In this document: piece by piece, positions 4,705-39,091 of the stretch
How the letters are laid out: each line of letters starts with the position of its first letter
How positions within the stretch are numbered: position 1 is the stretch's first letter
From: Colwellia sp.
GTDB lineage: Bacteria > Pseudomonadota > Gammaproteobacteria > Enterobacterales > Alteromonadaceae
Assembly (NCBI GenBank): GCA_026196955.1
Contig: JAPHTO010000015.1
Location: 28,510 to 92,509, forward strand
Length of the DNA stretch: 64,000 nt
Direction: 5' to 3'
Translations under genes and position numbers: made by a program
The notes under the pieces: generated by a model
What the model saw: the letters and a program-made list of their open reading frames with translations, nothing else
The model's database searches: none
Told to the model about the DNA's origin: nothing

Positions 4705-7461
4705 TTAAAACCTTACAGTGACTGTTGCGCCAAAGTAGCGGTTGAAATCTCTTGGTACATTGCCAGCAAGTGTTGAGCCTTTATCAACACCTCGACCTAA
4801 GCCATAGGTTTCACTAGTGTAACTATCAGCACCACCAGTGATTGGGTCAGTATAATAGGCACTGCTACCAACGGCTCTATCTAGCATACTATCACCATAG
4901 GTCGATTTACGTGAATAGTAATGTTTATCAAAGATGTTTTTCACATAGAATGAAACGCTATAGTCGTTGTCGTTTGAATTCCAACCGAAAAACAAGTTGT
5001 AAATACCACGCGCATCAAGGTTAACCTCTGGCAGTGCTAAAGCACCATGCTCAGGAGACTCATCACCTTTATAGCGGTAGTTCAACTTAACATAACCATT
5101 GCCGCCTAAGAAATCATGATCATATTTAATATTTAAATTACCTTGCCACTCTGGAGAGCCAGCTAAACGATCACCTTCTAAATCATAAACGCTACGTTTT
5201 TTAGGTTTAGGGTTGGTGGCTGATCTTGTCGTTAGTATGTCATAACATTCATCTGTGCCTTTTAAGTGAGGAGGACAGTTAAGTACAGCGTCACTTTCAC
5301 CAAAGTAGGCATCAAGGTAATTTAAGTTACCTGAAAATTCAAGATGCTCAATAGGTTGGTAAATGAAGTCGAAATCAACCCCTTTACTAATTAACGTACC
5401 TGCGTTCATTAATTCTCTGATATAAACAGGGCGTATTTCTGTCTCACCAGTGATAGGGTCGGTAACTTCACTCGCGCCACGCGTTGTATCGTACGATATA
5501 GAGCGTATTCTATCTTGGTAATTCTCGTATTCAGCATAGAATATAGAAGCGTTTAATCTTAGGGTATTGTCAAGCCAGTCAGAGCGAACACCAATCTCAT
5601 AGTTAATTGAGTCTTCACCTTCAATTGGACCGGCAGCAACAAAATCATCGTTATCAAGAACGGTATCAGGAGACCACCAAGCAACACCTTTATAACCGGT
5701 TGCAATAGAGGCGTAAGTCATTACCTCTTCAATAGGGTAGTATTTTATTGCTGCACGACCTAACACCTTATTCTCTGCATGCGTATTGTGTAAGCGCTCA
5801 AAGTCAGTGCCTGGCATATCAAAATTACGTTTATTGATTAATTCTCCGGTTTCTGGGTCTGTAGCTCCATCAAATATTACCGGTAGCCAGTCTGTGTACT
5901 CTTGCTCTTCACGTAAAACACGAGCACCAACGGTTGCGGTTAACTTCTCAGTTAAATGAAAGTCAATACTACCAAAAATAGCAAAGTTTTCAGTCTCTAA
6001 AGTAACGTCTTCAGGGGTATAACGCACTGTCTGCATCTTACTACCCCAAGTTGTTGTCGTGGGGTTAAAGTCCGTCATGTTGAAGGGGACTTCGCGTTGC
6101 TCGCCACAAAACTCTACATTAAAAGTGTCTAAGTTTATTTGACTAAGCTGTAAGCCTGGATCATTACAGAATAAAGCTTGTTGTCTACGCTCAGTATCAT
6201 TACTGAAATAGGCAGCGCCAAGGATATATTCATAATCTTCACTTTCAGGGGAAGCTATTCTAAATTCATGTTGTACAGTTTGAGAGCGCGTTTTGCCAGC
6301 CCAAGTATACGGTGAAGTATTGATAGCAATTGACGCTGCAGTTTCATTAGAGTACATATCAAAATCACGATAATAACCTGCATAAACCATGTCATAGTCG
6401 CCCATAGCCCAGTTAAGCTCTAAAGACGTACCAGTATTTTTTAGCTCACCCGGATCATGACTACCATGATATGACGTTTTATCGTTATACTCACCTTCAG
6501 GTGTTTGAGAAAGTATATGTGCGCGTGAGTTTGCAACAGGCACGCCATCTACCATTTCAACTAACCCGCCTTCAAGGTAACGTGGATCGTTGAGTTGTTC
6601 ATCGCTTAAAATGGGGCGGTCATGGCGTATATAGACACGGTTGCCTGGGCCATAATTAGATTTTGTGTGATCTAAACGCCATAATAAACTGGTGTCGTCA
6701 TCAAAATAATGTAGCACTTGCACTTTGCCGGCACTATCATCACCTGAGCCACCATGGTCTTGACCATCAATAACATTTTCAATATGGCCATCTTTGTACT
6801 TGTGCGCTAAGTTTAACCTAACAGCTGTTGAGTCACTTAGTACCTTGTTAAACGTACCTTGTAATGTATAGTCAAAGCCATCAGCAGCTTCGGCAAAGCC
6901 AGCTTTTAATTTACCAGAATCACCGTTAAAATTTGGTCTATTGCTGATAACATGTAAAGCACCAGCAGAGGTGTTTTTACCAAATAAAGTGCCTTGCGGC
7001 CCTTTTAATAATTCTACTCGCTGATTATCACCTAACAAACTGTGAATAGCAGAAGAGCGCGCCATGACTTCACCATCAATGATAATTGCGGCACTCGGCT
7101 CTGAAGAAATATTGACTTGAATGGTACCAACACCACGAATGGCTAATGACGTTGTGCGTGGATCATTTCTGTCTGAAAAAGTTAAACCCGGTAATAATTC
7201 AGCCACATCCATAAAATTACTGAGTTCAGCTTGTTCAATATCTTTACCAGTTATTGCGCCAATAGAGATTGGCACATCTTGTAAAGGCTCGACTCTTTTT
7301 TGACTCGTTACCGTTATAACTTCAATTCCTTTCGCTTCATCTTCCTTTCCGACTTCTTCTGCTTGCACAGAGCCAGTATAAGTTGCAATGGCGAGTGATA
7401 ATGGCAGCATTTTAATCACTTTCTTGGTGTGAATACCAACATCTATTTCCCGTTTTAACAT
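4705..7461 (-). CDS. TonB-dependent receptor
   Basis: Signal-like N-terminus, TonB-box-like IEVITVTSQKR, plug motif PQGTLFGKNTSAGALHVIS, C-terminal GATVTVRF. Confidence 0.95.
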   Translation of the reverse strand: MLKREIDVGIHTKKVIKMLPLSLAIATYTGSVQAEEVGKEDEAKGIEVITVTSQKRVEPLQDVPISIGAITGKDIEQAELSNFMDVAELLPGLTFSDRNDPRTTSLAIRGVGTIQVNISSEPSAAIIIDGEVMARSSAIHSLLGDNQRVELLKGPQGTLFGKNTSAGALHVISNRPNFNGDSGKLKAGFAEAADGFDYTLQGTFNKVLSDSTAVRLNLAHKYKDGHIENVIDGQDHGGSGDDSAGKVQVLHYFDDDTSLLWRLDHTKSNYGPGNRVYIRHDRPILSDEQLNDPRYLEGGLVEMVDGVPVANSRAHILSQTPEGEYNDKTSYHGSHDPGELKNTGTSLELNWAMGDYDMVYAGYYRDFDMYSNETAASIAINTSPYTWAGKTRSQTVQHEFRIASPESEDYEYILGAAYFSNDTERRQQALFCNDPGLQLSQINLDTFNVEFCGEQREVPFNMTDFNPTTTTWGSKMQTVRYTPEDVTLETENFAIFGSIDFHLTEKLTATVGARVLREEQEYTDWLPVIFDGATDPETGELINKRNFDMPGTDFERLHNTHAENKVLGRAAIKYYPIEEVMTYASIATGYKGVAWWSPDTVLDNDDFVAAGPIEGEDSINYEIGVRSDWLDNTLRLNASIFYAEYENYQDRIRSISYDTTRGASEVTDPITGETEIRPVYIRELMNAGTLISKGVDFDFIYQPIEHLEFSGNLNYLDAYFGESDAVLNCPPHLKGTDECYDILTTRSATNPKPKKRSVYDLEGDRLAGSPEWQGNLNIKYDHDFLGGNGYVKLNYRYKGDESPEHGALALPEVNLDARGIYNLFFGWNSNDNDYSVSFYVKNIFDKHYYSRKSTYGDSMLDRAVGSSAYYTDPITGGADSYTSETYGLGRGVDKGSTLAGNVPRDFNRYFGATVTVRF

Positions 7462-8267: not shown

Positions 8268-9821
8268 TTAATGATAAATGCTTGGTGGTGCATTTCCGAC
8301 AGCACTTAAGCGCTTGAGTAAGCCATTAACAGATTCTGAGCCTTTACTCCCCCAAATCCGCTCAGCAATTACGGCTTTAGCTTCGATAGATTTACCTTCA
8401 AACCATTGATCTGAATGCTCTAGTGCTTTGTCAGACCAAATACTGACTTTATAACCTAGTACGTTACCCTGAGTCTCAGGTTGCCACTTTTCATAAATTT
8501 TCTTGGTATCAACGATGCCATAGCCATCACTATTTTCTAGGCCAGGACTAACGTATAGCAAGCTTTCAGGCGTTAGCACAACTTGATACCCGTCTTTAAT
8601 AATTTGCTCTTGCCTAGGAAGGTTCCATACGTCAACAATAATGTCCTTTGCGGGTTGTAGTGTGGTTTTATTGTCAGCAAATCGCCACCAGTTCCATATT
8701 TTTGTCTGTTTACCATGAGACTTCACCAGTTCATTGACTTCATTTAGCCATTCAATGAAGATATCACCAGGTCTGCCATAGCCTTTATCTAACATGGTTT
8801 GCATTAACTCTGGACATTGATATTTTTGTGGGTCGTATTGATACTCATCACCACCAACATGAAAATATGGACCATCAAACAAAGGAATAAACTCATTCAA
8901 AAGCGCATTAATCCAGTCACGATTCTTTTGTTTGGTGATATCTATAGTCCATGCTTTGTTTTGCTTATTGGACTCCTCTCCCTGCCATTTAGCCAGTCTC
9001 ATTGACTCACAACTAAATGCAAGGTCGGGCTTAAAGTCAGTCATAAAAGTAGCATGAGCAGGAACATCTATTTCTGGCACTATGTTGATGTGATACTGAT
9101 TGGCAATATCTTGTAAGCGACGGATATCTTCTTTACTGTACGCTTCCTTTGAAGCGAGCCCTGGGTATGTATCACTTTGCAGGCGAAAGCCTACCCAATC
9201 AGTAAAATGTAAATGTAAAGTATTCAGCTTAAACCACGCCATATTACGCATGAGTGATTCCAGGTATTCCATTTCAAAATAGCGTCTACCGACATCAAGC
9301 ATGATGCCTCTAACCTTAAAGTCGGGACTATCAATACCTTGGCCTTTGCTGAGCGATATATTATCTTTTGACGTTTTTAGCATTTGTAATAGCGTTTGAT
9401 TACCATAAAATATGCCATGGTTATTCGCCGCAGAGATAATGATCTTGTCTCTTATGGTTAGTTGATAAGCTTCAGCAGTTCCCTTAAATATTTCATTTTT
9501 TGGTTCAATGTTGAGGTATATATCATTTGCCTTGGCGCTATTAGCCACTTTAATCTTTAAGTTTAGATTAGTGATAAATTTTATATCTTGCTGTAATAGC
9601 TCAGCTGTTGGTAAAAGATTTTTTTCATCCGTGGCATTAATGACAATACTTGAATTCTTGTTTAACTTTAATTGACCTTGGCTTGGGTGCCATTCTTTAA
9701 GTGCAGGTAGCAACGCATGATTAGCCAATGTAGTCATTGAGAAAAAACAGCTTAATATAATTAAAAGTGTTCGGGTTAAAACGATATTTTTTTTCATAAT
9801 ACTTGTCCATTTAATCTTCAT
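8268..9821 (-). CDS. GH20 family beta-N-acetylhexosaminidase
   Basis: GIMLDVGRRYFEMEYL, KLNTLHLHFTD, VPEIDVPAHA, catalytic YFHVGGDEYQYD; signal peptide. Confidence 0.9.
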   Translation of the reverse strand: MKIKWTSIMKKNIVLTRTLLIILSCFFSMTTLANHALLPALKEWHPSQGQLKLNKNSSIVINATDEKNLLPTAELLQQDIKFITNLNLKIKVANSAKANDIYLNIEPKNEIFKGTAEAYQLTIRDKIIISAANNHGIFYGNQTLLQMLKTSKDNISLSKGQGIDSPDFKVRGIMLDVGRRYFEMEYLESLMRNMAWFKLNTLHLHFTDWVGFRLQSDTYPGLASKEAYSKEDIRRLQDIANQYHINIVPEIDVPAHATFMTDFKPDLAFSCESMRLAKWQGEESNKQNKAWTIDITKQKNRDWINALLNEFIPLFDGPYFHVGGDEYQYDPQKYQCPELMQTMLDKGYGRPGDIFIEWLNEVNELVKSHGKQTKIWNWWRFADNKTTLQPAKDIIVDVWNLPRQEQIIKDGYQVVLTPESLLYVSPGLENSDGYGIVDTKKIYEKWQPETQGNVLGYKVSIWSDKALEHSDQWFEGKSIEAKAVIAERIWGSKGSESVNGLLKRLSAVGNAPPSIYH

Positions 9822-9822
9822 G

Positions 9823-11319
9823 CTAAACCCCTTTTGGCTCGGCCATTGTTGTGCGCCACTGTTGGTGTAAAGCTTTTAATCGCTTAACAATCTCGGGATG
9901 ATCTTTGGCAATATTTTTTGCTTCGGCTGGATCAGTTGATAAATCAAATAGCTGAGTACCTAGTTTTAACTCAACCATTTCAAATTTAGCATGCTCGTTG
10001 CTGTTTACTTGTTTTAATTTCCAATTGTTATCTCTAACAGCATACTCATAATGAGTATCCCAAATTAATGTCGGGTGATTAAGGGTCTTGTCAGTGCCGA
10101 GCAGTAATTCACTTATGTCTATACCATTGATGTTTTTAGGCTTTTCAGCACCAGCAAAACTTCCTAGGGTAGGCATAATGTCCATTGTACTGATGGTATT
10201 ATCAATGACTTGATTAGCAGCAATAACGCCAGGCCAAGCAGCTAACATAGGAATGCGAATACCTCCTTCATCTAAAGTGTACTTACTACCACGTAAATGG
10301 CCATTATTGGCGTATATAGGGGTAGAGCCACCGTTGTCACTAATAAACAGCACCAGTGTTTTTTCTTCAAGGCCTTGTGCTTTGATTGTGTCGAGTACCT
10401 TGCCTATTTCTCGATCCATATATTCAAGTTGGCCAAGGTAGTATGCGCGACCGTTGGGGTTATTAGGGTAGCGCCCTTTTTGATACCACTGATAATAACT
10501 TTCTTTTTCTGGTTGCCAGTCTTCAATACCGCTTAAGCCCTTTTCTTTAAGGTATTCTTTGGGTAATTGGTGAGTGAAATTATGTACGGCATTAAAGGCT
10601 AGCTGTAAATAAAACTTATTGTGTTTATTATCGCTGATAAATTCCCGCGCTTTAGCACCAAATAACTCAGTGGTTATGCCAGTAGCGGAAACTTTTTCCT
10701 TATTACTCCACATACTATCCATGCGTAAGCTTTGGCCTGTTTTTCGATTATATTTTTTTTTGTCTGCTAAGTGTTGTTGCTGTTTAGCATCATCGTGAAT
10801 TAAAAAATGTTTACGCCCGCCTGCAAAGCCATAAAAACTATCAAAGCCATGGTTTATAGGGAAGTCGCGACTTTCTGGTGAATTTGAGCTGTAATGGTAT
10901 TTGCCGACGTAGCCAGTGTGATAACCAACTGTTTTCAGCATTTCAGCAATGGTTGTGAATTCAGGTGACATTTCATTAAGGCCATAGAAATAACCCCCTT
11001 GGCGTTGCGGATAACTTCCAGTTAGGAGCCCCATTCTTGAGGTATTACACACAGGAGAGGTGACATAAGATTGGGTAAAGCGAATACCTGAGCTAGCTAA
11101 CTTGTCCAAATTTGGCGTACTCACATCGCCTGCTAACTTTGCTGCGCTTAAATCAGCATAGCCCATATCATCGGCAATAATCATGATTATATTGGGGGTT
11201 TCTTGCTTTACTGGTGATGAATGGTTTGTCTCAGTGTTATTTTTATCTGAATTACAGGCGAATAAAATAACAGAACATACTGATAATGCAGCAGTTTTTA
11301 AGGTGTTACTTTTAAACAC
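9823..11319 (-). CDS. S1-type sulfatase, lipoprotein; active-site motif CNTSR
   Basis: NIIMIIADDMGYADLS, VCNTSRMGLLTGSYPQR, FISDNGGSTPIYANNGHLRGSK; lipobox LFAC. Confidence 0.92.
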   Translation of the reverse strand: MFKSNTLKTAALSVCSVILFACNSDKNNTETNHSSPVKQETPNIIMIIADDMGYADLSAAKLAGDVSTPNLDKLASSGIRFTQSYVTSPVCNTSRMGLLTGSYPQRQGGYFYGLNEMSPEFTTIAEMLKTVGYHTGYVGKYHYSSNSPESRDFPINHGFDSFYGFAGGRKHFLIHDDAKQQQHLADKKKYNRKTGQSLRMDSMWSNKEKVSATGITTELFGAKAREFISDNKHNKFYLQLAFNAVHNFTHQLPKEYLKEKGLSGIEDWQPEKESYYQWYQKGRYPNNPNGRAYYLGQLEYMDREIGKVLDTIKAQGLEEKTLVLFISDNGGSTPIYANNGHLRGSKYTLDEGGIRIPMLAAWPGVIAANQVIDNTISTMDIMPTLGSFAGAEKPKNINGIDISELLLGTDKTLNHPTLIWDTHYEYAVRDNNWKLKQVNSNEHAKFEMVELKLGTQLFDLSTDPAEAKNIAKDHPEIVKRLKALHQQWRTTMAEPKGV

Positions 11320-11552: not shown

Positions 11553-12959
11553 ATGTTTAATATATTTATTCTTATAATCGCTTTTGTTTTTTCTGCGGTT
11601 ACTAATGAGCTACAGGCTCAAGGCAGTGATAACAGTCAAAAAATAAAGCGTACCAATTTTATTGTTATTTTAATTGATGATGCTGGCTACAGTGATTTTG
11701 GTACTTATGGTAGCAAGGATTTTAAAACACCTGCAATAGATAAGTTGGCAGCAGAAGGGGTCAAGTTTACCGAAGCTTATGTTACCGCGTCAGTGTGTAG
11801 TCCTTCGAGAGCGGGATTATTAACAGGCCGTTATCAGCAAAAGTTTGGGCATGAAGCTAATCTGTCTGAGCCGGCACCACATGGCTCGGTGCGAGAACTG
11901 TCGGGGTTGCCTTTATCAGAGTCAACCATTGCCGATTTGCTACAACAAAATGGCTATAAAACTTCGGCATTCGGAAAATGGCATCTAGGCTCGGCAGACA
12001 GGTTTCATCCGCTGAATCGCGGTTTTAGCGAATTCTATGGCTTCCTTGGTGGCGGACGTTCGTATTTTCCTTACCGCAGCGAAAAATATGCACCGCTCCA
12101 GCAACTATTACATAACACTATCCCTATTAAGTCATCTGGTTATTTAACCGACAACTTAACGGAGCAAGCAATAGATTTTATTGAGCGTAATCGAGAAGAA
12201 GATTTTTTTATATACCTTGCTTATAACGCTGTTCATACCCCAATGCAGGCACCTGATGATTTACTTGAAAAATATAATCATATAAAAAAACCAAGACGTA
12301 GAGCGTTGGCGGCGATGACAGCCGCTCTCGATAATAATATTGCTCGGCTAACCAAGCGGCTGAAAACGTTAGGGTTAGAGCAAGACACCATGGTTATTTT
12401 TCTCAATGATAATGGCGGCCCAACGCCATATAACTTTTCCCTTAATACACCTTTGACAGGAATGAAGGGCACAGTAAAAGAGGGCGGTGTACGAGTCCCT
12501 TTTATCATAAAATGGCCAGATAAAATTAAAGCACAGCAAGAGATAATTTCACCAATATCTTCATTAGATATTTACCCTACCATTGCAAAAGCGGCTGACA
12601 TTGTGATTCCTGATCATAAAGCTTACGACGGTATAGATTTAGTCGATTATATTGCTCAAGCAACCCCTAAGCCCAGAACCTTATATTGGAAAAGAGGTTA
12701 TCACTCAGCTATAAGGCAGGGAAACCTTAAGCTTATTCGTTATCCAGACAGGTTGCCTGAGTTATTTAATGTGAGAAAAGATCCGAGTGAATCTGAAAAT
12801 TTAGCTTTGGCTCAGCCAAAAAAAGTGCATGAATTACTTAAAGCTTTTTTCGACTGGGAGCACCAGTTAGCAAACCCATTATGGGGAATTGATACTTATT
12901 GGAAAGCGGAAGCGCTGCGTCAATATGAGCAAGACTATGTGATGCGAAACTTTAATTAA
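11553..12959 (+). CDS. S1-type sulfatase (CSPSR)
   Basis: NFIVILIDDAGYSDFG, VCSPSRAGLLTGRYQQKFG, FGKWHLG, FLNDNGGPTP. Confidence 0.93.
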   Translation: MFNIFILIIAFVFSAVTNELQAQGSDNSQKIKRTNFIVILIDDAGYSDFGTYGSKDFKTPAIDKLAAEGVKFTEAYVTASVCSPSRAGLLTGRYQQKFGHEANLSEPAPHGSVRELSGLPLSESTIADLLQQNGYKTSAFGKWHLGSADRFHPLNRGFSEFYGFLGGGRSYFPYRSEKYAPLQQLLHNTIPIKSSGYLTDNLTEQAIDFIERNREEDFFIYLAYNAVHTPMQAPDDLLEKYNHIKKPRRRALAAMTAALDNNIARLTKRLKTLGLEQDTMVIFLNDNGGPTPYNFSLNTPLTGMKGTVKEGGVRVPFIIKWPDKIKAQQEIISPISSLDIYPTIAKAADIVIPDHKAYDGIDLVDYIAQATPKPRTLYWKRGYHSAIRQGNLKLIRYPDRLPELFNVRKDPSESENLALAQPKKVHELLKAFFDWEHQLANPLWGIDTYWKAEALRQYEQDYVMRNFN

Positions 12960-13014: not shown

Positions 13015-14694
13015 ATGAATACGCGCAAAAGAAAATGTAGAGGTTTTTTCCTATTAATGGTGCTGAGTTTATTTTTTGGGCATGTAGTTAATATTAGTGC
13101 TCAAGAGGTATTTTCAGATAACGCCAATACTGTTGTTAAAAAAAATACCCGCTCTAATATGGTTATAGCGCCCAGCTTTGGTGAAATTATCCCACAACCC
13201 GTTAGCTTTAAAGAAGGAGTAGGGCATACAGATTTTTCTCAGCTTAGCGAAATTTTGCTAGATCGAGAAAATGAAGAGCTTGTTAAAGTAGCAAACTATT
13301 TTTTGGCAAATTTCTCGACGGCCTTAAGTAACAAGGTCGCGCTTATTCAGGATATAAGCAGTAAAGGGAGTGAACTAGTTAAAAAAAAGGAGAAATCAAA
13401 AGCAAAAGTACAATTAAAACTCGAGCTAGTTGATAACCTTCAAGGGGGCGCTGAAGCATATCAACTTGATATTAATGCTCACCTTATTCGTTTACAAGGC
13501 ACAACGGTAGCAGGAATTTTTCGCGGCATACAAACGCTTAAACAGTTGCTAAACCCTGAAATTGAACAAGCATCAGCTTCTAGTAAGCGAGCTTGGTTAG
13601 TGAGGCAAGGGAGTATTGTTGATTACCCTCGCTTCGCTTATCGCGGTTTTATGCTTGATGTATCAAGGCACTTTTATACTGTTGCAGAAGTGAAACAAGC
13701 GATTGACTACCTGGCTGCTTATAAGATCAATATTTTTCATTTTCATCTAACTAATGATCAAGGTTGGCGCATTGAAATTCCTAAATGGCCTCGGTTGACT
13801 GAAGTTGGTAGTAACTCAGCCGTTGGTCAAAAAACTTGCTCTGGATGCTTTTATAGTTTGGCTGAGTATAGTGATATTGTTCAATATGCTAATGATCGTC
13901 ATATCACACTTATTCCTGAAATTTCTGTACCAGGACACATTAAGGCGGCATTAGCTTCCTACCCGGAAGAGCTTTATTGCGAAGGCGATAAGCCTGATTG
14001 GCCGTATACCGATATTTTTGTCAGGGTTAGCTCATTGTGTTTTGGCAACGAAGAAATTTATCAGTTTTTTGATGATGTCATTGCCGCCATAGCGCCATTA
14101 ACAACCGGCGAATATATTCATGTTGGTGGCGATGAAACGCCTAAATGGGTAAAGCATAAAGATTATGCAGACTTTATGCTTAGGGCTAAAAAAACGCTGA
14201 CTAAACATGGCAAAAAAATGATGGGCTGGACCAATGATTTAGGCAATGTTGCAAATATAGGCAGTGAAGTGATTGGTCATCATTGGTCAGTTGAAGATAC
14301 CTGTTGTGAAACTACCTTAAATATGGCGAAACAAGGAAGCAAGATTGTGTTATCGCCAGCAAATAAAACTTATCTTGATCTAAAATATGATGCGAGCACT
14401 GTCTTAGGTTTGAACTGGGCTGGTTATAATAGTTTAGAGAACTCCTATCGTTGGGATCCGGCTACTTTTGTTAATGCTTTAGCAGAAAGCGCTATTTATG
14501 GTATTGAAGCGCCTTTGTGGGGAGAAACTATTAATTCGTTAGAAGATGCGCAATATATGATATTTCCCCGTCTTTTATCCTTAGCTGAAGTTGCTTGGAG
14601 CCCCCAGTTATCACGTTCATGGACTGATTTTCATCAACGAGTTAAGCAACATCAAATTCGTTTGAAAATAGCGAAAATCAACTTTCATCAATAA
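13015..14694 (+). CDS. GH20 beta-N-acetylhexosaminidase, chitobiase-like
   Basis: FMLDVSRHFYTVAEVKQAIDYLAAYKINIFHFHLTNDQGWRIEI, IPEISVPGH, HVGGDETPK, LWGETI. Confidence 0.93.
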   Translation: MNTRKRKCRGFFLLMVLSLFFGHVVNISAQEVFSDNANTVVKKNTRSNMVIAPSFGEIIPQPVSFKEGVGHTDFSQLSEILLDRENEELVKVANYFLANFSTALSNKVALIQDISSKGSELVKKKEKSKAKVQLKLELVDNLQGGAEAYQLDINAHLIRLQGTTVAGIFRGIQTLKQLLNPEIEQASASSKRAWLVRQGSIVDYPRFAYRGFMLDVSRHFYTVAEVKQAIDYLAAYKINIFHFHLTNDQGWRIEIPKWPRLTEVGSNSAVGQKTCSGCFYSLAEYSDIVQYANDRHITLIPEISVPGHIKAALASYPEELYCEGDKPDWPYTDIFVRVSSLCFGNEEIYQFFDDVIAAIAPLTTGEYIHVGGDETPKWVKHKDYADFMLRAKKTLTKHGKKMMGWTNDLGNVANIGSEVIGHHWSVEDTCCETTLNMAKQGSKIVLSPANKTYLDLKYDASTVLGLNWAGYNSLENSYRWDPATFVNALAESAIYGIEAPLWGETINSLEDAQYMIFPRLLSLAEVAWSPQLSRSWTDFHQRVKQHQIRLKIAKINFHQ

Positions 14695-14744: not shown

Positions 14745-15935
14745 ATGAGCAAGTCGTTTTTTTTAATACCAATACTAGCAATATTCTTTTCATTGTCAGG
14801 GGAGGCGAAAGATAACTTGCCCCTTAGCATGAACAATACTGCACATAAGGGCTGGGACGTACTCGATAAACCCATAAGACGCGCTCATTGGGTATGGCAA
14901 AAGGTACACTTGAGCGCTAACGATGTGCAAAAGAAGTACTTAGATTTCTATCAAAATAAATCGATCAGTGATGTTTATTTGTATATTGGCAATTGGCAGA
15001 CATCCACTAATTTACCGTTAAAAGCTGAATTAGATGACCAAGAAAAACTTGCGACATTTATTAGCAAAGCAAATGCTCGTGGTATTAAAGTATGGGGGTT
15101 ATATTATTTATGGGAGTCTTACCTTGATGCCAATGGTAAACGTATTAAAACCCTCAATTATATGGGGGATGTTAGTGCGAAAGAGCATATACGGGTAGGG
15201 CGTACTATTGCGAAAGCGGTAGGTAAATTTAACCAAAAATATCCTGATGCAGGTCTTCATGGTATTCAAAATGATCAAGAGCCAAAAGTAGCCCCTTTTT
15301 TTATACCGTTAATTGAATATCATCAGGCTTTATTTGAAGAGGCCAAGCCGTGGAATGCTCGCTTGCTCAAGCAAGGGGCACGCCCTTTTAAAAGCTCGGC
15401 GGCATATCGTAATCAATGGTTAGTACGAGATTTTGTTAGCTATGAAGGAAAAAAGGCACCACTGGCTTATCACTTGTTGAAAGTTACCCATCAGGCTGCT
15501 TTGATGAACTATAACAACAATGTTAATGGCTTTATTACCATGGGGGAAAAATACCTGCAACTAGCCGATTCTTTACCAGGAGAGCAAACAATTGTGATTG
15601 GTATAGAAACTGCTCCGTTAAGAGGGATGTGGCCCGGTGCAGAAAATGAAACTTATGCTGAAATTATTGCTGCTGAAAATGACACTAACCGTTTTAATAA
15701 ATTTGAAGCTGATATGGATAAGGCTGAGCATATCTTCAAGCAGTATAAATCGTATGAACGACTTGCCATTCATTCAGGAAATTATATCAAAGCTTGGTTT
15801 GATGGTCATGATATAGCTGATATTACCTCTGCGCCAAGTGATACTGTTTTTGTTGATTTATCTATTGATCAATCGCCGAGTGCGACTAAAACATTAACTC
15901 CAAACGGCTTGTCGAACATAAATGGACTCTTATAG
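14745..15935 (+). CDS. Secreted protein of unknown family, TIM-barrel-like; candidate glycoside hydrolase
   Basis: Signal peptide; alternating beta-strand/acidic motifs ISDVYLYIGNWQ, IKVWGLYYLWES, LHGIQNDQEPK, IVIGIETAP; embedded between two GH20 genes. Confidence 0.5.
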   Translation: MSKSFFLIPILAIFFSLSGEAKDNLPLSMNNTAHKGWDVLDKPIRRAHWVWQKVHLSANDVQKKYLDFYQNKSISDVYLYIGNWQTSTNLPLKAELDDQEKLATFISKANARGIKVWGLYYLWESYLDANGKRIKTLNYMGDVSAKEHIRVGRTIAKAVGKFNQKYPDAGLHGIQNDQEPKVAPFFIPLIEYHQALFEEAKPWNARLLKQGARPFKSSAAYRNQWLVRDFVSYEGKKAPLAYHLLKVTHQAALMNYNNNVNGFITMGEKYLQLADSLPGEQTIVIGIETAPLRGMWPGAENETYAEIIAAENDTNRFNKFEADMDKAEHIFKQYKSYERLAIHSGNYIKAWFDGHDIADITSAPSDTVFVDLSIDQSPSATKTLTPNGLSNINGLL

Positions 15936-15943
15936 GAAAAATT

Positions 15944-17485
15944 ATGAGATATTATTCGCTATTATTTGCTTTCTTCATTTATTGTTTATCTTTCTCGGCT
16001 TGGGCTAGCCCTATTGTTATTCCCGCGTTTAGCCAATGGCAAGCAGGCGTTGGCACATTTACATTAAATGCTGATGCTCGCTTGGTGATCTCAAACGATA
16101 AGTTAAAAGCGACCGCATCACAATTTCAACAAGATTTAAAGCTAATACGAGGCATAGCTCTTCCGATTGTTATTGGTAAGCCACAAGTGAATGATCTTTA
16201 TTTTACACTTGATGAGAAAAAGGCTGAACAGCTAGGTAATGAAGGCTACCAATTAAAAATTAATGATTCTGTTCAGGTTTCTGCTGCAGGTATCCAAGGG
16301 GTTTATTATGGCATGCAGTCTTTGTTACAACTGTTTAAGCAACAAGCGACTATAGCTCGTGGTCAGGCACTCGATAAACCTAGCTCACCCGAGCGCGGAA
16401 TTATGATGGATGTTGCAGCTTTTTATTTAACCCTTGATGAGTTAAAGGCAATGATCAGGCAATTATCTTGGAATAAGATGAATTTTCTTCATTTGCATTT
16501 AGCAGACAATGTCGCTTTTCGCTTAAAAAGCGACTTGTTTCCCGGTTTAACCTCAAAACGCCATTACAGCAAAGCCGATATTCGTGAATTGCAAGATTAC
16601 GCAGCACAACATCATGTCATGATTATTCCGGAAATCGATATCCCGTCGCATGCCACACATATTCTTAAATACAATCCTTATCTTGCTTTTGAATGTCCAT
16701 CCATGAGAACAAGTCATAAGGTTATTGAAAACTTTTCTGAAGATAAACATCCTCCGCGGGTACTCGATATTACTCGCAGGGAAGTTCGAGAATGGACTAA
16801 AGCAATGCTTGCTGAATGGTTGCCGCTTTTTGATGCACCATATTTTCATATTGGAGGCGACGAATATCCTTACGATGTGAATAAATACGCTTGTCCAGAA
16901 CTTATGCAAGCAACTAAAGATAAAGGTTATCCTTATCCGGGAGATGTTTTTGTTGAATATACCAATGAGCTGAATGCATTTGTAAAATCTTTTGGAAAAA
17001 TCACTCAGATCTGGAATTGGTGGCGTTTTAGTCCTGATGAAAATAAAAAAGATGTTTTGATTAAACGAATCAACCAAACCAGTATTCAACCGGATAAAGA
17101 TATTATTGTTAATATTTGGAACCAGCCTCGCCAAGATGCTATTTTACAAGAGGGTTATCAAGCGATTATTACCTCTGAAGAAGGCCCCGAGGCGCTTTAT
17201 GTTACCCCCGGAGATGGTACGCTTAAGCCCGGAGATTATGGCTATTTTGATAGTGAAAATATTCACCAAACTTGGCAGCCTAGGCGTCATCCTACAGTAC
17301 AAGGATTTAAAATTTGTATTTGGGCATTAGATGACAACGGATTAAGAAAGTTTGACTGGCTAAAACGGCAATACGATACACCACTCTCAGTTGTTGCTCA
17401 GAAAAGTTGGGGTAGTAAAACATCGGCTAAATTTACGGACTTTAAGCAAAAAATATCGACAGTAGGTCACTCTATTCGCCAATGA
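15944..17485 (+). CDS. GH20 beta-N-acetylhexosaminidase, paralogue of 8268-9821
   Basis: Signal peptide; KMNFLHLHLADNVAFRLKSD, IPEIDIPSHA, YFHIGGDEYPYDVNKYACPELMQ. Confidence 0.92.
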   Translation: MRYYSLLFAFFIYCLSFSAWASPIVIPAFSQWQAGVGTFTLNADARLVISNDKLKATASQFQQDLKLIRGIALPIVIGKPQVNDLYFTLDEKKAEQLGNEGYQLKINDSVQVSAAGIQGVYYGMQSLLQLFKQQATIARGQALDKPSSPERGIMMDVAAFYLTLDELKAMIRQLSWNKMNFLHLHLADNVAFRLKSDLFPGLTSKRHYSKADIRELQDYAAQHHVMIIPEIDIPSHATHILKYNPYLAFECPSMRTSHKVIENFSEDKHPPRVLDITRREVREWTKAMLAEWLPLFDAPYFHIGGDEYPYDVNKYACPELMQATKDKGYPYPGDVFVEYTNELNAFVKSFGKITQIWNWWRFSPDENKKDVLIKRINQTSIQPDKDIIVNIWNQPRQDAILQEGYQAIITSEEGPEALYVTPGDGTLKPGDYGYFDSENIHQTWQPRRHPTVQGFKICIWALDDNGLRKFDWLKRQYDTPLSVVAQKSWGSKTSAKFTDFKQKISTVGHSIRQ

Positions 17486-17568: not shown

Positions 17569-18648
17569 ATGAAGAAAGCTGTGCGACAGACAGTTAACGC
17601 TTTACTGATGCTCTGTTGTGTTTTGATTATCAGCGAGCATGCATTTGCCTATTCAACAACACCACTAAGGGTGTTGCAATTTAATATATGGCAAGAAGGG
17701 ACAGAGGTTTCTCAAGGTTTTGACGCCATAATTCAAGAGGTTATTGCTAGTAATGCTGATTTAATTGCTTTAAGTGAAGTTAGGAATTTTAATCAGCAAC
17801 CGTTAAATGAAAAGCTAGTTTCAGCATTGGCAAAACGTGGCTATCACTATTACAGCGAGCCTAGTCAAGACAGCGGTGTTTTATCGCGTTATCCAATATT
17901 GAAGCAAGAAATGCTGTTTTTTGATGCTAATGATCATGGTTCAATAACAAAAGCAACTATTTTGCTGCAGGATGTTGTCATTACGTTTTACAGCGCCCAT
18001 TTAGATTGGCAACATTGTAGTCTGTACTTACCCCGTGGTTATCATAGCTCTACTTGGAAAAAGTTAAAGGAGCCAGTGATTGATACGGAGAAAATAGCTC
18101 AAGACAATAAATTATCATTACGCGATGAAGCAATAACGCTTTTGCTTTTAGATAGTCAAAAAGAACGCGCGGCGGGACACTTGGTTATTCTTGCTGGTGA
18201 TTTCAATGAGCCTTCTCATCTTGATTGGATAGAAGCAACTAAAAACAGCTATGACCATCACGGCGTTGTTATGCCATGGCCTAATACGCTGTCATTAGCA
18301 CGAGAAGGTTTTGTTGATGCTTATAGGGCTAAGTTTCCTGATCCTGTGAGTCACCCCGGATTTACTTTCCCAGCTGACAATGTTGATGTTGCTATAGAAA
18401 AGCTAGCGTGGAGCCCCTTGGCAGATGACAGAGATCGGATTGATTATATTTTTTTTCAACCAGATAATCGCCTCACTCTAGGTGATGTGCAATTAATTGG
18501 CCCTTTAGGCAGCATAGTGAAAAATCAACGTAGTCTCGAAAAGAGTCAAGATCCTATAACCCCCCCGAAGGGAATTTGGCCTTCTGATCATAAAGCGGTG
18601 TTGGCAACTTTTTTGATAAATACTCAGGTGCAAGAAGTTGAAAAATAG
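17569..18648 (+). CDS. Secreted endonuclease/exonuclease/phosphatase (EEP) family protein
   Basis: Signal peptide; LRVLQFNIW, IALSEVRN, FYSAHLDW, LAGDFNEPSHLDW, RIDYIFF, PSDHKAVLATF. Confidence 0.85.
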   Translation: MKKAVRQTVNALLMLCCVLIISEHAFAYSTTPLRVLQFNIWQEGTEVSQGFDAIIQEVIASNADLIALSEVRNFNQQPLNEKLVSALAKRGYHYYSEPSQDSGVLSRYPILKQEMLFFDANDHGSITKATILLQDVVITFYSAHLDWQHCSLYLPRGYHSSTWKKLKEPVIDTEKIAQDNKLSLRDEAITLLLLDSQKERAAGHLVILAGDFNEPSHLDWIEATKNSYDHHGVVMPWPNTLSLAREGFVDAYRAKFPDPVSHPGFTFPADNVDVAIEKLAWSPLADDRDRIDYIFFQPDNRLTLGDVQLIGPLGSIVKNQRSLEKSQDPITPPKGIWPSDHKAVLATFLINTQVQEVEK

Positions 18649-18836: not shown

Positions 18837-20501
18837 TTGAGAGCTTTGAAGTATTTTTCTCTTACAATTATAGGCTTATTATTGTGTTGGAGCTTGAGCG
18901 CTGTAGCTGCGCGTCAACAACAGCAAAGTTTACAGCTTAATATTAACGGGCAGCTTTATACAGTGGCATTACAAGAAAATGCTCGTTTTGACAATATCAC
19001 TAGTACGGCTAATCATGTGCATTACCTAGGTAAACTGGTGGGAGAAGAGCAAAGTTGGCTCCGTATTTCAAAGATAAATGGTCATTGGCAAGGTATTGTT
19101 TCTTTATGGCATGAATTACACCTTATTGACTCTAGCCAGATAGAATCAATAAGTGCGCCTGTGCTGGTAAGTAAAGATATAACAACTAGCGTTATTCGTA
19201 ATATGGATGATGAACAAGTGGTAAGCACTGAACACATTCAACCTGTCATTAGCACAGCGGCCAAATCAACCCCTTTCGCTAATTTATGCGCTAATACTGT
19301 GAATGATGTTTGCTTAATTGCAGATGTTGAAGTTGCCTTTGATCAACAATGGCAACAAGCTATTACAGCGATAGGAGAAGATCCTGAAGCGCAAGCCGCA
19401 TCGTTAATGAATATTGTTGAAGGTTTTTATCTTAATGATTTTGGTATTAGTTTTAATATATTAAATTTAGCCTTGTTAGATTCGACAGTGTTTACTGAAA
19501 GTGAAAATGCGGAAGACTTGCTTGGAGATATTATCCGCAAACGCCAAAGTAATCAGTTGTCATTTGAACGTAGTGAATTCTCTGTATTTCATTTAGTGAC
19601 AGGGCGAGATTTTGCAAAGGGCTCTGGCATTGCTCGATCTAAGTCTGTTTGTAGTAATGGTGGAGCCTCAGGTACTACTCGAATTACAAAAAGTGCTGGT
19701 GTGCCAAGTATTGCATTGTCAGCTCTGGTGGTGGCACATGAAATAGGTCACAACTTTGGCGCTGCTCATGATGGCTCAGGGAATAGTTGCGATGATACAT
19801 TTTTGATGGGCTCTGCGGTGAAAAACCGCGCGACTGGCTTTTCTTCTTGCTCAAAGTCGAGCATTGAAAATTATATCGGGAATATTGATTCGCTTACAGC
19901 TTGTATGAGTTTCCCGGCCGATATTTCAATCACTGCGGCAGTTGATAATCCTGTTGAAGCCCCACAAGGTGAAGTTACAACATTGGCATATCAGGTACAG
20001 GTAAATCATGCGTACCAAGCGGTTAGCAGTGTTATGGTTAGTGGAGCTGTGTCAGTAGATGAGGGGCAATTTCATGCAGTGACTCTCAATGACTTAGCAT
20101 GTTCAGTGGCAGATAATGGACTTAGTTATCAATGTATACATAATCAAGCTCAACCTAACATGTTGTTGCTAGTTGATTTTGCTATAGATAATGCTTTAAT
20201 CAGTGAAGCAGCTCATATAAATCAATCGGCTATGATTCATAATCAAAATGACATTGTTGATATTGATAGTCGTAATGATCAGTTGACGTCACAATTACGC
20301 GTACTTGAAACGGATACAAGTACGAGCGCTAATAACGACAGCTCTTCAACGACTAGTAGTGCAAATAACAACAATGCAACGAGTGCCTCTCAAAGTAATA
20401 TTCAAGAAAGCAGTGGAGGCTCAACTCATTGGCTTTGGCTAATTTCGCTAGTGTTAATCAGACTTTATCAACAAGCTATGTCAATAAGGTTTCTACGTTA
20501 G
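18837..20501 (+). CDS. Reprolysin/adamalysin-like zinc metalloprotease with GlyGly-CTERM-like tail
   Basis: Zn site HEIGHNFGAAHDG; Ser/Thr/Asn-rich linker; C-terminal ESSGGSTHWLWLISLVLIRLYQQ...RFLR. Confidence 0.85.
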   Translation: MRALKYFSLTIIGLLLCWSLSAVAARQQQQSLQLNINGQLYTVALQENARFDNITSTANHVHYLGKLVGEEQSWLRISKINGHWQGIVSLWHELHLIDSSQIESISAPVLVSKDITTSVIRNMDDEQVVSTEHIQPVISTAAKSTPFANLCANTVNDVCLIADVEVAFDQQWQQAITAIGEDPEAQAASLMNIVEGFYLNDFGISFNILNLALLDSTVFTESENAEDLLGDIIRKRQSNQLSFERSEFSVFHLVTGRDFAKGSGIARSKSVCSNGGASGTTRITKSAGVPSIALSALVVAHEIGHNFGAAHDGSGNSCDDTFLMGSAVKNRATGFSSCSKSSIENYIGNIDSLTACMSFPADISITAAVDNPVEAPQGEVTTLAYQVQVNHAYQAVSSVMVSGAVSVDEGQFHAVTLNDLACSVADNGLSYQCIHNQAQPNMLLLVDFAIDNALISEAAHINQSAMIHNQNDIVDIDSRNDQLTSQLRVLETDTSTSANNDSSSTTSSANNNNATSASQSNIQESSGGSTHWLWLISLVLIRLYQQAMSIRFLR

Positions 20502-20914: not shown

Positions 20915-20986
20915 AAGTGGCATATTGTTTTCACTCATGATAGATTAAGCACAATGTAACTTATTTCTCTTTCATTGGTTAAAGAT

Positions 20987-22492
20987 ATGCAGATTTTTAG
21001 TTTTAATCTCATCAAGACTCGCTTAAGTGCTTTAGTTAAATTAGTAAGCCTTATCGCCTTATGCTTTGTTGTGATAGCCTGCAGCAAGACTGATAACAGC
21101 CCAATAGTTAAAAAAGATATTAGCCAAAAGCCTAATATTGTTTTTATTCTAGTGGATGATTTAGGTTGGCGAGATACTGGGGTGTATGGCAGTGCTTTCT
21201 ATGAAACCCCCAACATAGATAAATTAGCGCATGCTGGTACACGTTTTACTGATGCTTATTCATCAGCAGCAATATGCTCACCAACTCGTGCTGCAATAAT
21301 GACAGGTAAATCGCCAGCGCGTTTGAAAATGACTGACTATATTCCCGGTGAAGCTCAACAAGACCGCCAATTGCTAGGGGCTTTTGATCATAATGAGCTA
21401 GCACTAGAAGAGTACACCATAGCGGAAGCATTAAAAGCAGGTGGTTATAAAACATTTTTTGCTGGCAAATGGCACTTAGGCTCAGAAGCATACTACCCTG
21501 AGCATCAAGGCTTTGACTTTAATATTGCTGGTTCACATCATGGTACGCCGGGAGGTTACTATTCACCCTATAAAAACCCGAAACTGCCTGATGGCCCTGA
21601 AGGTGAGTATTTAACCGATCGACTCACCAATGAAACCTTGAGTTTTATTTCAAAAAATAAAGAGCATCCCTTTTTTGCCTATTTGTCTTTTTACAATGTG
21701 CATACTCCTTTGCAAGCGGCAAAAGCACACCTTGGAAGGTTCTCCGAAAAACTCATGAATATGCCTGCTGGTATAGGACCATCATTAAAAAAAGACGGCA
21801 GCGGCCTAAATAAGCAGCATCAAGATAATGCTACTTATGCTTCCATGATTTACGCCATGGATGAAAATGTCGGGCGAATTATTGATGGTTTGGCTGATAT
21901 GGGACTTGATGATAATACCATTATTATTTTCACCTCTGATAATGGTGGTCGCTCTATTTTAATTAATCGTTATGGCGGCGGTGATGCTACCTCTAATTTA
22001 CCGCTTCGTGCTGGTAAAGGATGGTTATACGAGGGGGGAATAAGAGTTCCTTTAATTATCAAGGCACCCGGAGTGACTACAGGGGGAACGGTTATTGATG
22101 AGCCTGTGATCAGTACAGATTTTTATCCTACTTTGTTAGAGCTTGCCCACTTGCCTAGCAAACCTGAGCAGCATTTAGATGGCTTATCATTAATGCCGTT
22201 ATTGCAGGGGAAACAGCAGCTATCACGGGAAAAGTTATATTTTTATTATCCACATTATCATGGTAGCGGCTCTGTACCTTCTGCGGCTGTACGTGCCGGG
22301 GACTGGAAGTTAGTGAAGTATTATGAAACTGATGCATTAGAGCTCTATAACTTAGCAGAAGATATTGGTGAAAAGAATAATTTAGCGCTAGCTGAGCCAA
22401 AGAAAAAGGCTGTTTTACATCAACGTTTGTCTCAATGGCTTGGAGAGGTAAATGCTGCCGTACCCACTAAAAACACTGCATTTAGTCAGTGA
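20987..22492 (+). CDS. S1-type sulfatase, lipoprotein (CSPTR)
   Basis: NIVFILVDDLGWRDTG, AAICSPTRAAIMTGKSPAR, FAGKWHLG, FTSDNGGRS; lipobox VIAC; listed start 20975 is TTG, ATG at 20987. Confidence 0.93.
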   Translation: MQIFSFNLIKTRLSALVKLVSLIALCFVVIACSKTDNSPIVKKDISQKPNIVFILVDDLGWRDTGVYGSAFYETPNIDKLAHAGTRFTDAYSSAAICSPTRAAIMTGKSPARLKMTDYIPGEAQQDRQLLGAFDHNELALEEYTIAEALKAGGYKTFFAGKWHLGSEAYYPEHQGFDFNIAGSHHGTPGGYYSPYKNPKLPDGPEGEYLTDRLTNETLSFISKNKEHPFFAYLSFYNVHTPLQAAKAHLGRFSEKLMNMPAGIGPSLKKDGSGLNKQHQDNATYASMIYAMDENVGRIIDGLADMGLDDNTIIIFTSDNGGRSILINRYGGGDATSNLPLRAGKGWLYEGGIRVPLIIKAPGVTTGGTVIDEPVISTDFYPTLLELAHLPSKPEQHLDGLSLMPLLQGKQQLSREKLYFYYPHYHGSGSVPSAAVRAGDWKLVKYYETDALELYNLAEDIGEKNNLALAEPKKKAVLHQRLSQWLGEVNAAVPTKNTAFSQ

Positions 22493-22544: not shown

Positions 22545-24731
22545 ATGATGAAAATAAGAAGTTTGTTTTTTACTTTTGGTATGGCCTTAGTGTTTGCACC
22601 ACAAACTGCCTTATTAGCTAAAGAAGGTAGCGTTAGCAAAGTAGATGATAGCCGTGTTATACAACAACGTCGTATCGAGCTAGCTGGAGCGCCGTTTCTC
22701 AATGCCAACTTAACTGTTGATGAACGGGTACAAGATCTTGCTAAACGCATGAGCTTAGATGAACAAATAACCTATCTGGCTGGCACAGGTTTTAAGTCAG
22801 GAATAAAAATAGGTGAGACTCAGCCGTTAACCGCCTATGGTTTGCCAGCCTTTAAAATGACTGATGCCACCTTAGGATCAAAGTTAACGAAAGATGCTAT
22901 TTTATTCCCTGCCTATATTGGTTTAGCTGCATCGTTTAACACACAACTTTCTAATGATTATGGTCGTGCCGTTGCCGAGCAAAGCCGTGCCGATGGTTAT
23001 CGTATTTTATTGGGCCCAGGCATTAATATGTACCGAGTGCCACATAATGGTCGTAACTTTGAATATTTAGGGGAAGATCCCTATTTAACCTCACGTTTGG
23101 TGGTGGCCTATATTAAAGCGGTACAACAAGCGGGCGTACTAGCTACCGTTAAACATTTTGTTGCCAATAACTCTGATTATTATCGCCAAAATAGCAATAG
23201 TGTGATTGATGAACGGGTACTGAGAGAGCTTTACTTTCCTGCCTTTAAAGCAGCTATTCAAGAAGCTGATGTGAAAGCGGTGATGATGGCCTATAACCTG
23301 ATCAACGGTAAATGGGCTGGCGAACATCCATGGCTTATTCAAGATATATTACGCAAAGAATGGGCTTTCACTGGCATGGTCATGAGTGATTGGTGGTCGG
23401 TATTCAATGCGAAGGAAACAATATTAAGTGGCCTTGATCTTGAAATGCCAAAAGCGGACATGTTTAAGGCTGAGAATATTAAAAAACTATTGACTGAAAA
23501 ATCATTAACTCCCGATGATATTAAGCAACATGTCATAAATATTCTTACCCCTATTTTTGCTATGGGCTTGGCTGATGACATTAACCAAACAAGCCCTAGC
23601 TTACGCAATAATTGGGCTGAACATGCTGAAATAGCTAAACAATTGGGGCGAGAAAGTTTAGTACTGTTGAAAAATGATGGCGTATTACCCCTTGATCGCA
23701 ATAAGGTTAAACACATTGCTGTGATCGGAAATAATGCGCTTGAGACCATTGCTAGCGGTGAAGGCGCAGCAGGTTTCGATCCAGGCAAGGATTTTGTTAC
23801 TTATTTTGCGGCGATTAAAAATAGTGCCGGGAAGCATATAAAGGTTGAGCATTATCAACAGCCTAATGCTGCGGTAGCAAAAGCAGATGTAGCGGTGGTA
23901 TTTGTTAATGTCACCGAAAGTGAATCACGGGATCGCAACTTTAAATTACCGCCCGAACAGCAGCAATTAATAGAAAAAACTGCAGCGTTGAATAACGATG
24001 TGGTTGTGGTAGTGAGTAGTGGTGGTGCGGTGGAGATGCCCTCATGGCAAAATAAAGCACGAGGTGTTTTTTACGCTTGGTATCCTGGTACTTGGGGAGC
24101 GACTGCAATAGGTGAAGCTATTTTTGGTGACTTTTCACCCTCAGGTAAATTACCTATTTCAATAGAGCAACGCGAAGAAGACAGCCATTACTGGGGCAAC
24201 TACATTGAAGGTCCCAAGGCTCTGCCTTTTGCAGAAAAACAATGGTTAAGTAAGAAGAAAGGCGTACATCATCATGATATTCACTATCGTGAAGGGGTGC
24301 TAATGGGGTATCGCTGGTATGATGCAAAGCCCGTAGAGCCGTTATACCCGTTCGGTTTTGGTTTATCTTACACCCGCTTTTCCCTGAGCAAAGCCAAGCT
24401 TTCAAGCAACAGCATATCTGCTGACGAACAAATTGAAATTAGTGTGACGGTAAGCAACATCGGCCAACGTAGTGGCGCTGAAGTCGTACAGCTGTACGTT
24501 CATGACGTAACGAGTAGTGTTCTTCGTCCAATTAAAGAGCTTAAAGCTTTCAGTAAAGTCTTTGTCGAGGCTGGTGAAAGTAAGCAAGTTAGCTTAACGA
24601 TAGATCGTAAGGCATTACAATTTTGGCATCCTGAAACTAAAGCGTGGACTGTAGAGGCTGGTGAATTTGAGTTATTACTTGGTACTTCGTCACAACAGAG
24701 TAGTTCAATTGGCCGGATCAGTTATCAATAA
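22545..24731 (+). CDS. GH3 family glycosidase, beta-glucosidase-like with fibronectin-III-like C-terminus
   Basis: LGPGINMYRVPHNGRNFEYLGEDPYL, TVKHFVANNSD, nucleophile motif VMSDWWSV, YPFGFGLSYTRFSLS. Confidence 0.92.
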   Translation: MMKIRSLFFTFGMALVFAPQTALLAKEGSVSKVDDSRVIQQRRIELAGAPFLNANLTVDERVQDLAKRMSLDEQITYLAGTGFKSGIKIGETQPLTAYGLPAFKMTDATLGSKLTKDAILFPAYIGLAASFNTQLSNDYGRAVAEQSRADGYRILLGPGINMYRVPHNGRNFEYLGEDPYLTSRLVVAYIKAVQQAGVLATVKHFVANNSDYYRQNSNSVIDERVLRELYFPAFKAAIQEADVKAVMMAYNLINGKWAGEHPWLIQDILRKEWAFTGMVMSDWWSVFNAKETILSGLDLEMPKADMFKAENIKKLLTEKSLTPDDIKQHVINILTPIFAMGLADDINQTSPSLRNNWAEHAEIAKQLGRESLVLLKNDGVLPLDRNKVKHIAVIGNNALETIASGEGAAGFDPGKDFVTYFAAIKNSAGKHIKVEHYQQPNAAVAKADVAVVFVNVTESESRDRNFKLPPEQQQLIEKTAALNNDVVVVVSSGGAVEMPSWQNKARGVFYAWYPGTWGATAIGEAIFGDFSPSGKLPISIEQREEDSHYWGNYIEGPKALPFAEKQWLSKKKGVHHHDIHYREGVLMGYRWYDAKPVEPLYPFGFGLSYTRFSLSKAKLSSNSISADEQIEISVTVSNIGQRSGAEVVQLYVHDVTSSVLRPIKELKAFSKVFVEAGESKQVSLTIDRKALQFWHPETKAWTVEAGEFELLLGTSSQQSSSIGRISYQ

Positions 24732-27843: not shown

Positions 27844-29337
27844 TTACATTTTTTTCAATACTGGTATATAGGCACCAACCGATGTTAAATAGTTGGTTAA
27901 CTGCTTATCTAACTGTTGTGCTTTTTTCGGCATCTTATCAAGTAAGTTATTACTTTCATTAGGATCTTTTGCAAGGTTAAATAGCAAAAGAGTTTGGTGA
28001 TGGTAATTACGAATAAGCTTATAGTCACCAACTCTAATAGCGCTTGCTGGGTACCCCCCTTCCGCTTGATAATGAGGGAAGTGAAAGAATAATGGTCGCT
28101 GATTGAAGATTAGCTCTTTTGCTTTTTGTTCTTTAAATAGAGGAACTAAACTTAGACCTTCAAGGTGTTGGCTGCTTATCAAAGGTGCGCCTATCATCTC
28201 TAACAAAGTCGGATAAAAGTCTGTGCTGGTAACAGGTATATCTGAACTCATACCTGCTTTACTATGACCTGGCCAATGAATAAGCAAAGGTGTTCGTAAA
28301 CCACCATCAAAAACAAAGGTTTTTCCCGTGCGCAACGGAAAATTAGACGTTGGATGTTTCTGAAACGACAGTGATGCCATGCCACCATTATCACCAGTTA
28401 AGATAATAATCGTATTATCATATTGCCCTGATGCCTTTAGTGCTTTAACTAAGCGGCCAATATTATGATCTAAGGTCGCTAATTCTCCAGCGTAATCAGC
28501 ATCGTCTTGACGAACTTTTTGTGCCTTATGCCCATAACTATCTAGTATTGCGTCATTTTTTAGCTCAGGTAAGGATTGAGCTTTTTTGCTAAATTTTTCA
28601 CGTAATGCTGGTTTCGATAAAATAGGAGAATGCATCGCAAAATGCGCAAGATGCATATAAAATGGTTGTTTACGATCTTTAGTCATAAACTCAATGGCGT
28701 GTTCAGTTAACAAATCAGTAAAGTTGTCTCCCTCTTTCGCGTTAGGAAAATAATCAGGATTCCCCCTGAATGGATAAAACATTGATGCGCTATTTGCTTC
28801 AATGACGGCCATTTGCGAATCATAACCATGATTTTTAGGACCTCCCGTTTCATCAAAGCTTCCCATGTGCCACTTGCCATAAAACGCAGTATCATAGCCG
28901 ATTTCTTTAAGCGATTCTCCTAAGGTTATTTCATTTCCTTTAATGCCTGAGGATTTAGATAAAGGTGTGAGCACACTCGCGTGCTCTTTACGGCCACGGG
29001 TAAATGCCTTGCTGCTGCCTGGTAGCCACTGGGTGACTCCATGTCTAGCGGGGTTTTTTCCGGTTAAAATACTTACTCGGGTTGGGGAACACATAGGGCT
29101 GGGCGTATAAGCATTATTAAAGCGCATCCATTCGCTAGCTAAGTGATCTATTTCGGGCGTTTCATAAAACGAACTGCCGTTATAACCTACATCTTTCCAT
29201 CCAAAATCATCAATTAGAATAAAGAGTACATTCGGCTTATCACTGGAATCGTTATCTTGTGCAAGTGCTGGCTGATTAAGTAATAAAGTAATTATTAATA
29301 ACAATTTACTGAAGAAGTATATGGTTTTATTTATCAT
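27844..29337 (-). CDS. S1-type sulfatase (CSPTR)
   Basis: NVLFILIDDFGWKDVG, PMCSPTRVSILTGKNPARHG, FYGKWHMG, LTGDNGGMA; signal peptide. Confidence 0.93.
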   Translation of the reverse strand: MINKTIYFFSKLLLIITLLLNQPALAQDNDSSDKPNVLFILIDDFGWKDVGYNGSSFYETPEIDHLASEWMRFNNAYTPSPMCSPTRVSILTGKNPARHGVTQWLPGSSKAFTRGRKEHASVLTPLSKSSGIKGNEITLGESLKEIGYDTAFYGKWHMGSFDETGGPKNHGYDSQMAVIEANSASMFYPFRGNPDYFPNAKEGDNFTDLLTEHAIEFMTKDRKQPFYMHLAHFAMHSPILSKPALREKFSKKAQSLPELKNDAILDSYGHKAQKVRQDDADYAGELATLDHNIGRLVKALKASGQYDNTIIILTGDNGGMASLSFQKHPTSNFPLRTGKTFVFDGGLRTPLLIHWPGHSKAGMSSDIPVTSTDFYPTLLEMIGAPLISSQHLEGLSLVPLFKEQKAKELIFNQRPLFFHFPHYQAEGGYPASAIRVGDYKLIRNYHHQTLLLFNLAKDPNESNNLLDKMPKKAQQLDKQLTNYLTSVGAYIPVLKKM

Positions 29338-35500: not shown

Positions 35501-35532
35501 TGGTTAACTTAGTACCAACAAAGGATTTTTCC

Positions 35533-36654: not shown

Positions 36655-36667
36655 TAAAGGCACAGTT

Positions 36668-38786: not shown

Positions 38787-39076
38787 TCAGTTTAACTTAA
38801 ATACAATGTTTTATTATTGAATGGAAAAAGTTGCTTATTGCTTGAGTTGAAATATAGGTTGTTATCAATGACAAAAACGAATAATTCATAGTTGGTCTTC
38901 ATATTGTTTCGATGCCTCTTTCATAAACAATCAATGTTTTAAGTTTTGTTTGGCATCATAGCAGCGAAATTGGTAGTGACACTGTACTTATCATGAAATT
39001 ATGAATTTTTATTGCTGCATATGAGGGATACAAGCAACTTATGAAGTAGAGGTAAATAAATTGATTTAGTTTGTTT

Positions 39077-39091
39077 GAAATCTTGTGAAAG
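39077..39091. promoter_or_regulatory. Candidate AgaR operator upstream of agaR
   Basis: tttGAAAtcttgtGAAAGagg, 10-bp spacing. Confidence 0.45.

Follow-up and report, generated by a model that had tools for sequence, protein, structure and literature searches.

We analysed a 64,000-nt stretch of DNA from Colwellia sp. (GCA_026196955.1, contig JAPHTO010000015.1, positions 28,510–92,509 of the forward strand), referred to here as the window, whose numbering is used in Table 1. The gene under study encodes a protein of 396 aa and lies between two GH20 genes. The reading frame, its location and the motifs quoted in a preliminary description of this DNA were all recovered exactly as given there. 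The GC content per codon position (0.476/0.358/0.335) was similar to that of neighbouring genes, and the 396 open codons compare with a maximum of 174 in 1000 shuffled sequences. The gene belongs to a co-oriented run, being separated from the upstream GH20 gene by 50 bases and from the downstream one by 8 bases, and no terminator-like site was found on the plus strand in either gap. Its product starts with a strongly hydrophobic stretch (Kyte–Doolittle peak about 2.9) that is closed by a plausible cleavage site between GEA and KD, and the N-terminus of the homologue described below likewise resembles a signal peptide. Judged from these signal-like features, the protein appears to be secreted, in line with the signal peptide proposed earlier.

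Table 1. Features of the candidate glycoside hydrolase gene and its surroundings (coordinates in the 64,000-nt window)
Feature	Coordinates	Strand	Remarks
TPR-repeat protein with two sulfotransferase domains	2255..4558	-	adjoins the TonB receptor of the cluster
TonB-dependent receptor	4705..7461	-	
GH20	8268..9821	-	45% identical to the GH20 at 15944 (paralogue)
S1-type sulfatase	9823..11319	-	CNTSR at formylglycine site
S1-type sulfatase	11553..12959	+	CSPSR
GH20 beta-N-acetylhexosaminidase	13015..14694	+	HVGGDE motif intact
Candidate glycoside hydrolase	14745..15935	+	396 aa, ATG start; residues about 1–21 signal-like
IQNDQEPK, residues 174–181	15264..15287	+	end of predicted strand 4; conserved D177 and E179, the latter as proposed acid/base
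IVIGIETA, residues 283–290	15591..15614	+	end of predicted strand 7; conserved E288 as proposed nucleophile
GH20	15944..17485	+	lacto-N-biosidases (8hvb, 9fyn, 4h04) as nearest solved structures
Exo_endo_phos family secreted protein	17569..18648	+	
Reprolysin-like zinc metallopeptidase	18837..20501	+	zinc motif HEIGHNFGAAHD intact
S1-type sulfatase	20975..22492	+	CSPTR
GH3	22545..24731	+	
GH116-type protein	24939..27644	+	
S1-type sulfatase	27844..29337	-	CSPTR
S1-type sulfatase	29705..31087	+	CGPSR
GH20-like protein	32074..33018	-	314 aa; HIGMDEDH motif
aga-type GalNAc catabolic genes	34217..42455	+	
Calcineurin-like phosphoesterase	39961..40893		within the aga cluster

Altogether, the surrounding sugar cluster comprises a TonB receptor, five S1 sulfatases, three GH20 proteins plus a GH20-like protein, GH3 and GH116. 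The aga-type genes, which adjoin this cluster, encode AgaZ/KbaZ-like, AgaS, a ROK sugar kinase, a NagA/AgaA-type deacetylase, AgaR, a metallophosphoesterase and a NagP-like transporter. Because sulfatases, the aga pathway and a lacto-N-biosidase-like GH20 with its paralogue occur together, the gene content indicates that the cluster probably targets a sulfated glycan containing GalNAc, perhaps attached to protein. The metallopeptidase encoded inside the cluster suggests a glycoprotein or proteoglycan substrate. The two phosphoesterase genes, one within the aga cluster and the other (Exo_endo_phos) in the sugar operon, as well as the phosphatase-like neighbours of the homologue, hint that the glycan may carry phosphate. 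The operon had been said to hold otherwise only exo-acting enzymes, which proved too loose a wording: the downstream GH20 is closest to lacto-N-biosidases, enzymes that release disaccharides, and the run also encodes the Exo_endo_phos protein and the metallopeptidase. In another genome of the genus (G992), a lacto-N-biosidase-like GH20 gene adjoins aga genes, and no comparable barrel gene was present among the ORFs of at least 200 aa in the stretch analysed on its GH20 side. A GH16 gene lies beside two GH20 genes in the marine Chondrinema litorale, which provides an analogy for an endo-enzyme near such GH20s and not evidence on the 396-aa protein.

Several other genes of the region deserve mention. 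The CNTSR sulfatase departs from the usual CxPxR/CxAxR motif, so that the standard enzyme may not mature it, or it may be inactive. The 314-aa protein listed as GH20-like showed weak similarity to GH114 (Pfam) and to GH20 (PDB 9fyl, E 7e-6) and appears to be a GH20-like barrel standing on its own, one that escapes the GH20 model of Pfam. Like the window, with its TPR-containing double sulfotransferase, G992 carries a TPR-sulfotransferase gene (L018, 6291–7934) near its GH20 and aga genes.

No credible match to the 396-aa protein was obtained in Pfam-A, NCBIfam, PADLOC or PHROGs, nor in Pfam at E-values of up to 10; a Pfam EBV-NA3 match (E 0.13, far under its cut-off) was attributed to chance. 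Neither the GH18 nor the Glyco_hydro_20 model of Pfam matched, an hhalign comparison led us to reject kinship with GH20 (E 0.33, probability 0.2%), and nothing in the sequence ties the protein to a GH-A family. Searches of the PDB sequences with phmmer (single sequence) and with a two-row profile returned nothing beyond chance, and a literature search found nothing on the family. The earlier statement that the protein matches no family thus holds for Pfam, NCBIfam, PHROGs, PADLOC and the PDB sequences, none of which gave a clear match to a known family. As Pfam does not cover every CAZy family, the protein is a candidate for a new family as set against these five collections, not against CAZy's own models.

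The family is extremely rare, with two members in the genomes searched: a single homologue emerged from searches that covered over 1000 genomes and from a scan for peptide patterns in about 85,000 species genomes. This relative was found among 200 and then 400 genomes of the taxonomic family, whereas wider draws (395 genomes of the order, 274 and 350 of the class, 299 of the phylum, partly overlapping) contained none beyond chance. Of about twenty further genomes of the window's own genus in the family draws, none of those listed carries the gene, and plasmid, phage and viral-contig collections contained no relative either. The pattern scan with the two-row alignment, which depends on exact matches to short peptides and would overlook remoter relatives, returned only the known homologue across the about 85,000 species genomes; when genome contigs were scanned with the single protein, 40 candidates came up, none of them a relative. 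Weak matches in two genomes were dismissed as chance, one falling in a TssF/TssG-like type VI secretion region (G1168) and the other in a DUF262-like protein (G680); two more genomes gave weak matches with E-values of 0.05–0.08 (G723 and G103).

The homologue comes from an uncultured member of the Alteromonadaceae belonging to another genus (CANMXU010000015.1; L002, L005 and L006). Its identity to the 396-aa protein across the whole barrel domain was 44% by search and 47% in the alignment. With 720 aa, it is considerably longer: it has a 39-residue insert after strand 1, and the barrel domain is followed by a module of unknown family and a C-terminal CBM_4_9. It is surrounded by housekeeping genes and by two purple-acid-phosphatase-like proteins that share its C-terminal modules, and therefore lies outside any polysaccharide locus. 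The C-terminal module pair is common to three secreted proteins of this organism (L004, 14405–17137; L005, 11328–14141; L005, 838–3000), two of them purple-acid-phosphatase-like and the third the relative described here.

To assess the fold, we used AlphaFold models built from the two sequences (model numbering plus 26 gives full-length numbering). Model 1, of the 396-aa protein, was of low confidence (pLDDT 46, pTM 0.47), and model 2, with the homologue placed first, was poorer (pLDDT 42, pTM 0.40). Model 1 nevertheless contains eight strands (β1 20–23, β2 50–54, β3 89–94, β4 147–150, β5 190–193, β6 217–222, β7 257–262 and β8 311–316) with helices between most of them, that is, in the order of a TIM barrel; its best region extends from strand 2 through the helix after strand 4, with blocks reaching a pLDDT of up to 86. 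Foldseek returned 76 PDB matches for this model at E ≤ 0.001 (best 6.7e-6), and about 46 of the 50 listed were glycosidase barrels (GH5, GH20, GH53, GH39 PslG, GH84 and others). TM-scores to the structural matches were about 0.3, with sequence identities of 6–17%. The top matches of model 2 were GH53, GH5, GH1, GH10 and GH39, mostly of clan GH-A, and non-glycosidase barrels such as PETN reductase and epimerases were few among the matches of the models. The best viral match was an uncharacterised Terrestrivirus protein (E 1.6e-8). Both predictions favour the TIM-barrel fold of the preliminary description over a non-barrel one. We consider a glycosidase-type barrel likely, rather than shown, because the predictions come from weak models.

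The motifs that had been singled out fall on the predicted strands of model 1: DVYLYIGNWQ on strand 2, IKVWGLYYLWES on strand 3, GIQNDQEP on strand 4 and IVIGIET on strand 7. The DQE of the strand-4 motif (model residues 151–153, the Glu being E179) directly follows β4, and β7 terminates at E262, corresponding to E288 of the full-length protein, so that the acidic motifs NDQEP and GIETAP would sit at strand ends. The homologue, the sole one available, has kept these acids and shares every candidate catalytic residue: D177, E179 and E288 are identical in both sequences. However, acidic residues are identical at 25 of 40 aligned positions, and with only two sequences the conservation of a single residue therefore carries little weight.

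In clan GH-A, the acid/base glutamate follows strand 4 and the nucleophile glutamate follows strand 7. The 396-aa protein resembles this clan (GH5, GH53, GH39 PslG, GH1, GH113) in its predicted (β/α)8 barrel, in the predicted placement of its glutamates after strands 4 and 7, which are 109 residues apart, and in the best Foldseek matches of both low-confidence models. It differs in having no detectable sequence similarity to the clan and in reading N-D-Q-E-P, as does the homologue, where Gln takes the place of Asn ahead of the strand-4 Glu; an Asn directly at this position is found in most, but not all, GH-A families. Our preferred reading, to which we assign a probability of about 0.5, is that of a secreted, single-domain (β/α)8 glycoside hydrolase with a clan GH-A-like retaining mechanism, from a family outside Pfam, NCBIfam and the PDB sequences, that acts on a sulfated GalNAc glycan. 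The CBM_4_9 of the homologue and the sulfatases, GH20s, GH3, GH116 and aga genes around the Colwellia gene are consistent with a glycosidase, whereas the location of the homologue between purple-acid-phosphatase-like proteins, outside a sugar locus, counts against the proposed function.

The same residues could be read differently, with D177-Gln-E179 as the DxE pair of a substrate-assisted glycosidase that uses the 2-acetamido group (GH18-, GH20-, GH56- or GH84-like) and E288 in a structural role. GIQNDQEP fits the strand-4 motif spacing of GH18 chitinases, G-I-x-x-D-x-E, both D177 and E179 are conserved in the two sequences, and model 1 matched dispersins, lacto-N-biosidases, hexosaminidases and an O-GlcNAc hydrolase. 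Acetamido participation would also suit a cluster that handles HexNAc, with GH20 enzymes, one of them lacto-N-biosidase-like, encoded next door. We regard this mechanism as unlikely, given that the top matches of model 2 belong to clan GH-A and that neither a GH20 profile similarity nor a GH18 match was found. Moreover, the protein has neither the adjacent Asp-Glu of GH20 (its motif being D-Q-E) nor a GH20b domain, and of the GH18 motif DxxDxDxE, HGIQNDQE retains the final D and E but not the first two Asp; the second conserved Glu of the protein lies at predicted strand 7.

A separate question, compatible with either mechanism, is whether the protein belongs, as a highly divergent member, to a CAZy family already described, such as GH5, GH39, GH53, GH113 or one established recently that Pfam does not model. 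The Foldseek matches do cluster in such families, but the failure of Pfam and PDB sequence searches and the low identities to the structural matches make membership rather improbable, if somewhat less so than the DxE mechanism. We would give the least credence to another function altogether, be it non-catalytic glycan binding or a lyase or esterase activity, on a TIM barrel or not. The low confidence of the models, the few non-glycosidase barrel matches and the secreted phosphoesterase-like proteins flanking the homologue would fit such a role, yet glycosidases dominate the matches of both models, the glutamates at predicted strands 4 and 7 are conserved, and the homologue is fused to a CBM.

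Under the preferred clan GH-A-like reading, the protein would follow a retaining mechanism as in clan GH-A enzymes, with E179 (end of strand 4) serving as the acid/base and E288 (end of strand 7) as the nucleophile. Its role would be to help degrade a sulfated GalNAc-containing glycan alongside the sulfatases, GH20 hexosaminidases, GH3 and GH116 with which it would be made, and endo cleavage would yield fragments of a size that the exo-enzymes and the TonB receptor can handle. Both its endo action and its substrate are what we infer for the protein, and the idea that it supplies a missing endo activity is weakened by the different genomic context of the homologue. More tentatively, and with somewhat less than an even chance, the two proteins may found a new glycoside hydrolase family with a clan-A-like or DxE-type barrel, endo-cleaving or disaccharide-releasing on a sulfated GalNAc-containing glycan.

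Sugar-utilization loci often yield new families of carbohydrate-active enzymes, each of which can open a linkage that could previously not be cut. Here, the sulfatases, the lacto-N-biosidase-like GH20 and the GalNAc operon narrow the candidate substrate enough for testing, and E179 and E288 are direct targets for mutants. Work on marine carbon and the analysis of sulfated glycoconjugates would both benefit from enzymes that act on sulfated GalNAc glycans.
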